64,000 bases of DNA from Streptomyces akebiae. Its GTDB lineage: Bacteria > Actinomycetota > Actinomycetes > Streptomycetales > Streptomycetaceae. Position 1 is the stretch's first letter, and every line of letters starts with the position of its first letter. A program made the translations under genes and the position numbers. The DNA lies in contig NZ_CP080647.1 in the NCBI RefSeq assembly GCF_019599145.1, positions 1,116,001-1,180,000 of the forward strand, in the 5' to 3' direction. The notes beneath the pieces are model-generated. The model did no database searches. It saw only the letters and a program-made list of their open reading frames with translations, and was not told where the DNA came from. Shown piece after piece: positions 6,536 through 18,188 of the stretch.

Positions 6536-7687
6536 TCATGACAGGCTGACCGGGAGCCGGCGACCAGCCAGGCCACGTCTGCGTGCGGACAGCCCCTCCG
6601 CGATTCCGCGGAGCGCCACCGCCGCGGGAGCCTCGGGGGCGCTCAGCACCAACGGCGTACCAGCGTCGCCCGCCTCGCCCAGGAGGGGGTCCATCGGCAC
6701 CTGACCCAGCAGGGGGACTTCCGTGTCCAGCGCGAGCGACAGCGAGTCGGCGACCGTCCGGCCGCCGCCGGAGCCGAAGAGCCGCGTCGTCGAACCGTCC
6801 GGCAGCCGCAGCCAGGACATGTTCTCCACCACCCCGGCCACCCGCTGACCGGTCTGCAGGCCGATGGCCCCGGCCCTCTCGGCCACCTCGGCCGCGGCCG
6901 CCTGCGGTGTGGTCACCACGACGATCTCGGAGCCGGGGAGCAACTGGGCTATGGAGATGGGGATGTCGCCGGTGCCGGGCGGCAGGTCGAGCAGCAGCAC
7001 GTCGAGATCCCCCCAGTACACCTCGCCGAGGAACTGCTGCAGCGCGCGGTGCAGCAGCGGGCCGCGCCACATCACCGGCACGTTCCCTGAGGTGAACATG
7101 CCGACGGAGATCACCTTCACACCGTTCGCCCGGGGCGGCATGATCATTTTTTCGACGCGAGTGGGGCCCGCCGTCACCCCCAACATGCGCGGAACCGAGT
7201 GGCCGTGGATGTCGGCGTCCAGCACGCCGACCGACAGCCCGCGGGAGGCCATCGCAGCGGCCAGGTTGACCGTGACACTCGATTTGCCGACCCCGCCCTT
7301 GCCGGAGGCGACGCAGTACACCCGGGTCAGGGACCCGGGCCGGGCAAAGGGGATCTCCGGCTGGTCCGTGTCACCCCGCAGGTTCCTTCGCAGTTCGGTG
7401 CGTTGCTCGTCGCTCATCACGTCCAGCTCGATCCGCACCTCGCGCACACCGGGCAGCGCGGACACCGCGGCGGTGGCGTCCGCGGTGATCTTCTCGCGCA
7501 GCGGGCAGCCGGAGACGGTCAGAAAGATGCCGACCAGCACCGTGCCGTCGGTGCCCACCGTGATCTCCTTGACCATCCCGAGGTCGGTGATGGGCCGCTG
7601 GATCTCCGGGTCGAGGACCTCGGACAGTGCCTTGCGGACCGTCTCCGTGGCCAGGGCGGCCCGTTCGTGGGTCTGTGCTGTTGTCAC
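6536..7687 (-). CDS. Mrp/ApbC-family Fe-S cluster carrier ATPase
   Basis: The protein is 383 aa. An N-terminal MIP18 (DUF59) domain spans residues 15-110 (VLDPEIQRPITDLGMVKEI; the CPLREKI motif carries a Cys). A ParA-like deviant Walker A follows at about 132-142 (SGKGGVGKSS), with Walker B VLLLDLPPGTGD. The family delivers Fe-S clusters to apo-enzymes. The C-terminal CPHC-like cluster ligands often found after ENMSW are absent here: the segment reads ENMSWLRLPDGST. It is last in an operon rich in Fe-S proteins, which supports a role maturing the ferredoxins and the oxidoreductase upstream. The alternative is a general-purpose duplicate of the housekeeping Mrp. Confidence 0.9.
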   Translation of the reverse strand: MTTAQTHERAALATETVRKALSEVLDPEIQRPITDLGMVKEITVGTDGTVLVGIFLTVSGCPLREKITADATAAVSALPGVREVRIELDVMSDEQRTELRRNLRGDTDQPEIPFARPGSLTRVYCVASGKGGVGKSSVTVNLAAAMASRGLSVGVLDADIHGHSVPRMLGVTAGPTRVEKMIMPPRANGVKVISVGMFTSGNVPVMWRGPLLHRALQQFLGEVYWGDLDVLLLDLPPGTGDIPISIAQLLPGSEIVVVTTPQAAAAEVAERAGAIGLQTGQRVAGVVENMSWLRLPDGSTTRLFGSGGGRTVADSLSLALDTEVPLLGQVPMDPLLGEAGDAGTPLVLSAPEAPAAVALRGIAEGLSARRRGLAGRRLPVSLS

Positions 7688-7739
7688 AGGTGGCTCCGAA
7701 TTCGTGGGGCGCTGGGTGTGCGGGCGGGGGGACGCGACA

Positions 7740-8810
7740 TCAGCCGGCGACGGTCCAGGTGTCCTTGCCGGCGAGCAGGGACTGCAAGTCGGGTGTGGTG
7801 CTCCTGGCCTCCTCGATCTGGGCGCGGACCTGATCGTCGTAGACCGGGCGGCTGACGGAGCGGAAGACGCCGGTGACGGTGTGGGCGAGATCCTGGGAGC
7901 ACAGGCGCGACAGGGCGAAGGCGTAGGAGGGGTCCTCCAGGGTGGCGTCGTGCACCACCAGCGCCTCCTTCCCCACTTCGGAGACCTTCGCCGTCTCCAA
8001 CCCTCCGAAGCCGTTACGGACGACGCCGAACTCCCCTTCGGCGCCGAAGCGCAGCGGCTTGCCGTGCAGCAGTGGGATGAGCCGCCGCTCCCGCTCGCCG
8101 GGCCGCCGCAGGACCTCGAAGGCGCCGTCGTTGAAGATCGGGCAGTTCTGGTAGATCTCCACGAGCGCGGTGCCCCGGTGTTCGGCGGCCGCGGTGAGCA
8201 CGCCGGTCAGCCCGGCACGGTCCGAGTCGAGGACGCGGGCCACGAACGTGGCACCGGCGCCCAGGGCCAGCGAGACCGGGTCGAAGGGGGAGTCGACCGA
8301 GCCCATGGGGGTCGATTTGGTGACCTTGCCGGGCTCCGAGGTCGGCGAGTACTGGCCCTTGGTGAGTCCGTAGATGCGGTTGTTGAACAGCAGGATCTTC
8401 AGGTTCACGTTGCGCCGCAGCGTGTGGATCAGATGATTGCCGCCGATCGACAGGGCGTCCCCGTCGCCGGTGACCACCCACACCGACAGATCGGGGCGCG
8501 CGACGGCCAGACCGGTGGCGATGGCCGGGGCGCGGCCGTGGATGGAGTGCATCCCGTAGGTGTTCATGTAGTACGGGAAGCGGGAGGAGCAGCCTATGCC
8601 GGAGATGAACACGATGTTCTCCCGCTTCAGCCCCAGCCGGGGCATGAAGCCCTGCACAGCGGCCAGGACGGCATAGTCACCGCAGCCGGGGCACCAGCGC
8701 ACCTCCTGGTCGGACTTGAAGTCGTTCGGCGACAGCTTCGTGTCGGACTCGGGCACCAGTGCCTGTCCGCCGATGCCGGGCAGGCCGAGGTCGAGGTCGA
8801 GGGTGGTCAT
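7740..8810 (-). CDS. korB: 2-oxoacid:ferredoxin oxidoreductase, beta subunit
   Basis: The protein is 356 aa. It carries the CPGCGDY motif and the later GIGCSSRF cysteine, which with further Cys bind the [4Fe-4S] cluster of this subunit. The thiamine diphosphate motif GDGDALSIGGNH ... NNRIYGLTKGQYSPTS follows. With KorA it oxidatively decarboxylates a 2-oxoacid (2-oxoglutarate or pyruvate) with CoA and passes two low-potential electrons to ferredoxin in the cytoplasm. The start ATG overlaps the KorA stop by 4 bp. In this operon the electrons plausibly feed the AprBA-like reductase through the two ferredoxins. Confidence 0.93.
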   Translation of the reverse strand: MTTLDLDLGLPGIGGQALVPESDTKLSPNDFKSDQEVRWCPGCGDYAVLAAVQGFMPRLGLKRENIVFISGIGCSSRFPYYMNTYGMHSIHGRAPAIATGLAVARPDLSVWVVTGDGDALSIGGNHLIHTLRRNVNLKILLFNNRIYGLTKGQYSPTSEPGKVTKSTPMGSVDSPFDPVSLALGAGATFVARVLDSDRAGLTGVLTAAAEHRGTALVEIYQNCPIFNDGAFEVLRRPGERERRLIPLLHGKPLRFGAEGEFGVVRNGFGGLETAKVSEVGKEALVVHDATLEDPSYAFALSRLCSQDLAHTVTGVFRSVSRPVYDDQVRAQIEEARSTTPDLQSLLAGKDTWTVAG

Positions 8811-17397: not shown

Positions 17398-17402
17398 GGA
17401 GG

Positions 17403-18188
17403 TCAGCCCCTTTCGGTGGAAGGGTGGTTCAGCAGCGGGTCGGGGGTGCGGTGAAGCCAGCCGGCCAGGGACATCCGGTCGCCGCGGAATCGGACGAATT
17501 CGAGATCGATCGGCCGGCCCGCGTCGGTGTAGGTCAGCCGTTCGAGGAACAACAGGGGAAAGCCGTCCGCCACGCGCAGCAGGTCGGCGACGGTACGGTC
17601 GGCGGCGATCGCCTCTATGGACAGGGCGGCGGCCCCCAGGGGGAGTCCCAGTTCGCCTTCGAGCAGCCCGAAGATGTCGTGCCGCGCCAGGTCCATCTCC
17701 AGCAGGGGCCGGCCGATGTCCGCGGGAAGGTAACTGGCGTCCAGCGACAGGGGCTGACCATCGAGCAGCCGCACCCGCTCCAGGGCGACCACTTCGGTGC
17801 CGGGGGCGAGTTCAAGGCGCTCGGCGACGGTGGGTGTGGCGGGCACGGTGTCCGCCAGCAGCACCTGGTTGACCACGCGTTCGCAGCCGGTGTCGAAGCT
17901 CTCCGCGAGCCCGCGCAGCCGGTCCAGGCCCTGTACGGCCTTTCCCGACACGACGAACGTTCCGACCCCGGGAATCCGGTCGACCAGGCCCTCGACGCGC
18001 AACAGCGCGAGGACGTCCCGGACGATGTTGCGGCTGGCCCCCAGTTCCGCGGCCAGCTCCGCCTCGGAGGGCAACGGCCGGGTTCCGTATACGCCCGTCA
18101 GGATGCGGGCGCGCAGCACGTCCCGAATGCGCCGTACCGGTGCGACACGGCTACCTGAACCTCTGCCACCTGCGGCGATCGCTGTCAT
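17403..18188 (-). CDS. GntR-family regulator, HutC/UTRA type
   Basis: The protein is 261 aa. Winged helix-turn-helix lies at about residues 18-85 (LRARILTGVYGTRPLPSEAE, ELGASRNIVRDVLALLRVEG). A UTRA effector domain follows (VVALERVRLLDGQPLSLDAS, FPLLFLERLTYTDAGRPIDL). It is the first gene of the operon and probably represses it, being relieved by the imported compound or a product. The TTACGC repeats 24-66 bp upstream of its start are the best operator candidates. Confidence 0.93.
   Translation of the reverse strand: MTAIAAGGRGSGSRVAPVRRIRDVLRARILTGVYGTRPLPSEAELAAELGASRNIVRDVLALLRVEGLVDRIPGVGTFVVSGKAVQGLDRLRGLAESFDTGCERVVNQVLLADTVPATPTVAERLELAPGTEVVALERVRLLDGQPLSLDASYLPADIGRPLLEMDLARHDIFGLLEGELGLPLGAAALSIEAIAADRTVADLLRVADGFPLLFLERLTYTDAGRPIDLEFVRFRGDRMSLAGWLHRTPDPLLNHPSTERG

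Follow-up and report, generated by a model that had tools for sequence, protein, structure and literature searches.

What use might an aerobic actinomycete have for a flavoprotein of the adenylylsulfate (APS) reductase lineage, encoded together with a sulfonate-type importer and a low-potential source of electrons? The question is raised by a 64,000-nucleotide stretch of the Streptomyces akebiae genome (NZ_CP080647.1, positions 1,116,001 to 1,180,000; hereafter the window), in which eleven co-directional genes run along the minus strand from 18188 (a GntR regulator) to 6536 (Mrp). About 95% of soil sulfur is bound in organic form, in large part as sulfate esters and sulfonates, and for soil bacteria the described way of using sulfonates is a monooxygenase system (PMC4267179). 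The answer proposed here, plausible and held with a little less than even confidence, is that an enzyme of the AprBA lineage uses ferredoxin electrons, in this operon predicted to come from KorAB, to liberate sulfite from a sulfonate-like compound that the cell imports. A preliminary description of this DNA had already linked a ferredoxin-type redox pair related to AprBA with an importer of sulfonate type, a view supported by the tree and by the conserved link with the importer and HEAT genes. The operon comprises the following genes (window coordinates; aa, amino acids; FAD, flavin adenine dinucleotide):

17403..18188, minus strand: GntR/UTRA (HutC-type) regulator, operon gene 1 (PF00392, PF07702)
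15613..17397, minus strand: AprA-lineage FAD flavoprotein, 594 aa, the proposed catalytic subunit (NF010374, NF006131)
14651..15622, minus strand: HEAT-repeat protein (HEAT_2; aligns with the last third of the fused NF010374 model)
14411..14638, minus strand: AprB-like protein, 75 aa, with eight Cys in two 4Fe-4S motifs
12932..14398, minus strand: SsuA-like substrate-binding lipoprotein with a C-terminal extension of ~115 aa without family assignment
11947..12843, minus strand: SsuC/TauC-type permease (PF00528; SaoP, NtrB and TauC models all under their cut-offs)
11177..11950, minus strand: SsuB/TauB-type ATPase (PF00005; taurine ATPase model 232.6 bits, cut-off 357)
10708..11046, minus strand: FdxA-type ferredoxin, 112 aa (NF045480, FdxA_Actino, 138 bits, cut-off 125)
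8807..10711, minus strand: KorA, 2-oxoacid:acceptor oxidoreductase alpha subunit (TIGR03710, 647 bits, cut-off 482.75)
7740..8810, minus strand: KorB, 2-oxoacid:ferredoxin oxidoreductase beta subunit (PF02775; TIGR02177 241.5 bits, under the cut-off of 261.9)
6536..7687, minus strand: Mrp/ApbC-type Fe-S carrier ATPase (PF10609, PF01883)

The single strand and the families are as first described, a NosL assignment excepted. With the start codons that we picked, the ten intergenic gaps from GntR to Mrp measure 5, -10, 12, 12, 88, -4, 130, -4, -4 and 52 bp, a span of -10 to 130 bp against the mostly -4 to 130 bp first given.

A first line of evidence is the lineage of the flavoprotein. The protein exceeds the cut-offs of NF010374 (PRK13800; 1206 vs 1196 bits) and NF006131 (PRK08275; 876 vs 587) and fails the aprA model TIGR02061 (134.6 bits vs a cut-off of 641.75). 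Its closest named relatives are flavoproteins of Streptomyces (98%), and its best solved ones are the alpha subunit of MtPAPSR (8a8o), the FAD/[4Fe-4S] phosphoadenylylsulfate (PAPS) reductase of Methanothermococcus thermolithotrophicus, and then AprA. The family numbers 6469 proteins, clustered at 90%, at E<=1e-60 out of 7999 scored. In an unrooted IQ-TREE tree of 26 rows, in which both AprA rows are partial, 11 family rows lie on one side of a branch supported at 100/99 and join AprA and MtPAPSR at 100/98, standing beside that pair and not inside it. The opposite side is taken by SdhA/FrdA/NadB-type rows, four of them from the window genome, and by seven AsfA-type rows; a grouping with fumarate reductases or aspartate oxidases was checked in this tree and not seen, and the flavoprotein keeps its description as AprA-like.

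The residues of the pocket place the family in AprA's lineage with a ligand that is unlikely to be APS. The covalent-flavin His of SdhA/FrdA is absent, Gly51 standing there within a Ser-Gly as in AprA, and the family retains the AprA Asn74 and Lys267-Asp268 positions as well as the His of the MtPAPSR GGH motif. On the other hand, Tyr occupies the AprA Trp234 position and Leu (Leu250 in the window) the Arg265 position, each in 20/20 sequences, Asp or Glu is found at the Tyr95 position, and other APS contacts also differ. In AprA, Arg265 binds the sulfate group of APS, and Trp234, Tyr95 and Asn74 have roles of their own. The position of Gln145, an APS-contact residue in Archaeoglobus fulgidus AprA (PMC10322725), holds Arg or His in a loosely aligned part. 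Moreover, an invariant stretch, VH(R/H)xGxYVLPMP(E/N)G, stands at the position of the AprA substrate loop. Since the Arg265 position is lost and the family has an invariant loop of its own, APS reductase activity is unlikely.

The second line of evidence is the conservation of the genes around the flavoprotein. The actinobacterial scan took one genome per species and the best 80 of 585 confirmed relatives; these are loci and not genomes (Nocardia salmonicida contributes two), and their neighbours were counted by tblastn of the window proteins. The flavoprotein, AprB-like, substrate-binding, SsuC, SsuB and HEAT genes occur together in 74/80 loci, all 74 also with GntR, which lies near the flavoprotein gene in 75/80. 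Five of the six incomplete loci (L015, L017, L054, L056 and L071) are cut by contig ends, as judged by coordinates, and the sixth, L041, on a contig of a metagenome-assembled genome, is without the binding-protein and SsuC genes. Two layouts are found: that of the window (L006-L014), with the order flavoprotein, HEAT, AprB-like, binding protein, SsuC, SsuB and ferredoxin, and a commoner one in which the flavoprotein comes last, usually fused to HEAT. A search with NF006131 found the flavoprotein in 12/396 Actinomycetota genomes, 104/295 genomes of the window's genus and 0/14 controls, and among 30 loci from the window-genus search 4 had the window layout (the window's own included) and 26 the other. 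As a separate observation, Mycolicibacterium houstonense (L053:4594-9213) carries M24-peptidase-like and EF-P-like genes, names read from sequence, between the binding-protein and permease genes.

The core extends to other phyla, and gene sets of this kind occur in many bacteria of soil and water. The plasmid collection gave 51 records at E<=1e-50, 48 covering at least 80% of the query, and 20 of the 51 were read: 15 from Pseudomonadota, 4 from Cyanobacteriota and 1 from Actinomycetota. Of these 20 loci, 17 have the six-gene core, 6 of them with GntR. Because the core order is held across genera and phyla, the association of these genes goes beyond chance. Two features of these plasmid loci deserve mention in their own right: a LysR regulator of ~670 aa in cyanobacterial L088 (6304-8340; similar annotated genes in L093 and L150) carries an NMT1/SsuA-like domain in addition, which gives it the look of a binding protein turned sensor, and in two Rhizobium plasmids (L145 and L148, ~4.0-8.4 kb) thiC-thiO-thiS-thiazole synthase genes lie just 5' of the DUF971-flavoprotein operon.

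Within the core, the AprB-like protein matches AprB and the MtPAPSR beta subunit (3gyx_B, 8a8o_C, 1jnr_B), and the Trp of its CWxCxxC motif is found in 44/44 separately callable open reading frames (ORFs). By this comparison at motif level it may correspond to the beta-subunit Trp that carries electrons between cluster and FAD in AprBA. The HEAT protein, fused to the C-terminus of the flavoprotein in many relatives, is likely a scaffold or maturation partner.

The electron-supply and Fe-S genes behave differently. KorA and KorB accompany the core in 6/80 actinobacterial loci each, Mrp in 7/80 and the ferredoxin in 9/80, all eleven genes being found in 6/80 (three Streptomyces, Isoptericola, Promicromonospora and Glycomyces). 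FdxA, KorAB and Mrp are thus an add-on to a conserved core. In Nocardia vaccinii (L009) the place of KorAB, between the ferredoxin and Mrp, is taken by a 467-aa protein whose family matches are GltD-like NADPH-binding proteins and which is read as an FprA-type ferredoxin reductase; the L008 contig breaks off inside a gene that shares 81% identity with it across 80 aa. Reduction of ferredoxin is the normal activity of KorAB as well as of FprA-type enzymes. The plasmid loci show comparable exchanges: the Fe-S helpers alternate among the 20 (Mrp 4, DUF971 11), L095 has FdxA with a ferredoxin-NADP reductase, and L090 has FdxA with a 1153-aa FAD oxidoreductase. Consequently, of the eleven-gene module first described, the link between flavoprotein, importer and HEAT protein is strongly conserved and its indivisibility is not, given the low counts of KorA, KorB and Mrp and the FprA-like swap. 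Furthermore, the genome (10.5 Mb) has another KorA copy (G000:C1:4124992-4126836, 71% identical protein) and DNA matches elsewhere to Mrp (73%) and to the queried part of KorB (72%), so that the electron-supply and Fe-S-loading genes of the operon are extra copies. In the reported match to this second KorA gene there is one in-frame TGA.

As regards the importer, the predicted model of the binding protein has SsuA as its best fold match, in a fold search that spans residues 44-369, and an SsuA-type fold is therefore predicted for it. Its score is under the cut-off of the SsuA model TIGR01728 (142.7 vs 163.5 bits), and indeed the SsuA-, SsuB- and SsuC-type proteins are each under the cut-offs of single-function models. 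The binding protein had been called NosL-fused, a name that is not supported, its C-terminal domain matching no Pfam family at E<=10, PF05573 (NosL) included. PF05573 matches in 0/148 genomes of the class at E<=1e-8, the window genome included, so that there was no NosL set for a profile comparison. Cys382 and Cys411 of this domain are both present in 54/83 aligned rows and both absent in 29/83, never single, and are likely a disulfide rather than a conserved copper site. A copper role for the domain was accordingly dropped.

A third line of evidence, of narrower reach, comes from a pair of genes beside the operon. The first description had missed these neighbours:

18494..19531, minus strand: YeiE-like LysR regulator adjoining the operon (NF040889 149 bits, under the cut-off of 480)
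19632..20726, plus strand: YeiH-family putative sulfate/sulfite exporter, divergent from the LysR gene (PF03601 214.5 bits; TIGR00698 103.7 bits, under the cut-off of 232.6)

YeiE is linked to sulfite tolerance. YeiH homologues lie near 6/9 window-type loci and 1/71 others, and relatives of the LysR gene are found in L006, L007, L008 and L014, with weaker ones in L012 and L013. Since these genes are ordered and oriented differently in the Streptomyces/Nocardia loci than in those of Promicromonospora/Glycomyces, repeated recruitment of the exporter genes is suggested. Among the plasmid loci, YeiH stands beside 3/20 and TauE/SafE beside 5/20 by annotation (tblastn recovers 4 of the 5), and other loci adjoin LLM monooxygenases, TauD, sulfate or sulfonate importers, or 3-mercaptopropionate dioxygenase. 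Additional conserved genes were also sought around 92 loci, 80 on genome contigs and 12 on plasmids; the clusters obtained were read for the most part as shadow ORFs or as ordinary chromosomal genes, and an LLM-type protein recurs in 6 of the 92. Where such neighbours occur they point to imported organosulfur with sulfite as the product; most loci have none.

Taken together, these genes would allow the following path: electrons from a 2-oxoacid would pass through KorAB, FdxA and the AprB-like clusters to the FAD and on to the substrate, Mrp (DUF971 in other lineages) would likely load the Fe-S clusters, the HEAT protein would likely serve as a scaffold, and any surplus of sulfite would likely be dealt with by the YeiH exporter and the YeiE-like regulator. 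The C-S bond might be cut via an N5-sulfur adduct or by hydride-driven elimination of sulfite, the latter being the alternative should N5 attack on sulfur prove impossible.

Several observations weigh against sulfite release by this enzyme. Leu at the Arg265 position means that an AprA-type attack on sulfur is not simply transferable, and the other changed APS contacts count in the same direction. The IQ-TREE warning that long branches meet between the groups touches the lineage itself; polyferredoxins outscore AprB as matches of the AprB-like protein; and the predicted model of the flavoprotein is poor (pLDDT, its predicted local distance difference test score, 61) and was left unused for fold search. 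As regards the neighbourhood, 73/80 actinobacterial loci are without YeiH and 80/80 without a TauE match at the threshold used (tblastn), 15/20 plasmid loci have neither YeiH nor TauE (tblastn and annotations), the window YeiH and LysR proteins stand under NCBIfam cut-offs, and the importer is incomplete in three plasmid loci (L086 without SsuC and SsuB, L090 without a detectable binding protein, L091 without any importer).

The strongest alternative is that the flavoprotein/ferredoxin pair supplies a separate C-S-cutting oxygenase with electrons, or readies the substrate for it, as reviews assume for AsfA/AsfB; we regard it as unlikely and still deserving of serious attention. The asfRABC genes form an aerobic flavoprotein/ferredoxin/importer system for arylsulfonate sulfur (PMC4267179, PMC2864759) whose cluster shares parts with the present one, namely a binding protein, an ABC transporter, a reductase and a ferredoxin, and asfA mutants lose the use of aromatic sulfonates and keep that of aliphatic ones (PMC4267179). 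In Cupriavidus metallidurans, AsfA/AsfB are given as Rmet_4334/5, with a NuoF homologue at 4300 and an FAD oxidoreductase at 4310. Rmet_4334 was expected at ~924 kb from TauD and squalene cyclase anchors, and a rough count of ORFs, starting at the gene presumed to be 4310, meets a flavoprotein/ferredoxin pair 22-23 ORFs on, 24-25 being expected. This pair (L134, 927.9-929.9 kb), a 549-aa FAD flavoprotein and a 111-aa ferredoxin with a double cluster motif adjoining an SsuABC-type set, we infer to be AsfA/AsfB by gene counting. Moreover, LLM, TauD or Rieske oxygenase matches lie near 6/80 and 5/20 loci (11/100), a further point against direct sulfite release. Nevertheless, 89/100 loci have no oxygenase match within ~9.5 kb, few oxygenase queries being used and an oxygenase elsewhere in the genome being possible; the window flavoprotein is 27% identical to the candidate AsfA over 405 aa and belongs to another clade; and the invariant loop found where AprA has its substrate loop suggests that the flavoprotein acts catalytically on a defined substrate.

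A fumarate-reductase-like hydrogenation, in which hydride would reduce a C=C bond or an aromatic ring of the imported compound, with or without later loss of sulfite, appears improbable. Part of the pocket, FQINP or YQINP, is near the SdhA motif QFHP, whose substrate-binding His is replaced by Asn, and a donor of low potential, KorAB for example, would be apt for a demanding reduction; nevertheless, the tree places the family with AprA, away from SdhA/FrdA/NadB, and the covalent-flavin His is missing. An APS or PAPS reductase for sulfate assimilation can be practically discounted: the closest solved relatives are indeed MtPAPSR and AprA, but the APS-contact positions are altered, the aprA cut-off is far from met, the operon encodes an importer but nothing for the activation of sulfate, and assimilation is likely already served because the genome has three CysH/CysD-type matches. 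Two PAPS_reduct matches of equal score (G000:C1:2354056 and 2598118) perhaps reflect a recent duplication of CysH/CysD type.

Reductive release of sulfite, the reading preferred here, has a wider form which we advance more tentatively: a widespread, unrecognised aerobic sulfur scavenging in which an AprBA-derived enzyme would reductively strip sulfite from imported organosulfonates with low-potential ferredoxin electrons and without oxygen, some Streptomyces, Glycomyces, Isoptericola and Promicromonospora bringing their own KorAB, ferredoxin and Fe-S loader. If this is true, a reductive route of APS-reductase lineage in Actinomycetota, Pseudomonadota and Cyanobacteriota would be an added mechanism of sulfur cycling, a low-potential KorAB would gain a specific job in an aerobe, and a large family mostly named 'fumarate reductase/succinate dehydrogenase flavoprotein' would gain an explanation.

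Other features of the window can be mentioned briefly. Two direct TTGGCGTAAC copies lie at 18188-18488, 5' of GntR, and a 10-bp imperfect inverted repeat just 5' of the GntR start is a possible operator. A 355-aa ORF (23642-24709, plus strand) has a C-terminal WhiB domain (residues 267-335) behind an N-terminal part that is long for a WhiB protein, and a two-component pair (3159-4945, minus strand) consists of a HisKA_3 kinase and a LuxR-type response regulator.

Compared with known systems, the importer has the binding-protein fold and the permease and ATPase families of SsuABC/TauABC, and differs from them in the extra C-terminal domain of its binding protein and in its partner, a reductase-type flavoprotein instead of SsuD/TauD. 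KorAB is likewise known, KorA here passing its family cut-off, and is here placed in a sulfur-type operon (6/80 loci). With AprBA the module shares lineage, the Ser-Gly replacing the covalent-flavin His, and a double-cluster partner (with a CWxC motif in the window); however, the AprB-like protein has 75 aa against 150-166 in solved AprB, and the flavoprotein is under the aprA cut-off with a changed pocket. MtPAPSR, the nearest solved flavoprotein, of a neighbouring clade, also has a small double-cluster beta partner; it retains the Arg (AprA 265) replaced by Leu in the window family, and it serves sulfate assimilation in a methanogen (PMC10322725). No description of the module was found in the open-access literature, judged by titles and abstract openings, and in this sense it can still be called undescribed, as it was at first; its layout, in contrast, resembles that of asfRABC, a known aerobic system. 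Both occur in aerobes and join in one cluster a flavoprotein of the SdhA/AprA superfamily, a ferredoxin with a double cluster motif and an SsuABC-type importer. The candidate Asf ferredoxin has CQTC where the AprB-like protein of the window has CWYC, no homologue of the window HEAT, Kor or Mrp was matched in the 12 kb read at the candidate Asf locus, and the regulator is LysR as described for asfRABC and GntR here. The C. metallidurans pair is too distant for the module to be Asf itself, an identity that was rejected, Asf being a parallel system. Because the candidate AsfA has so low an identity, the window module represents another realisation of that layout, formed around an enzyme of the AprA lineage.

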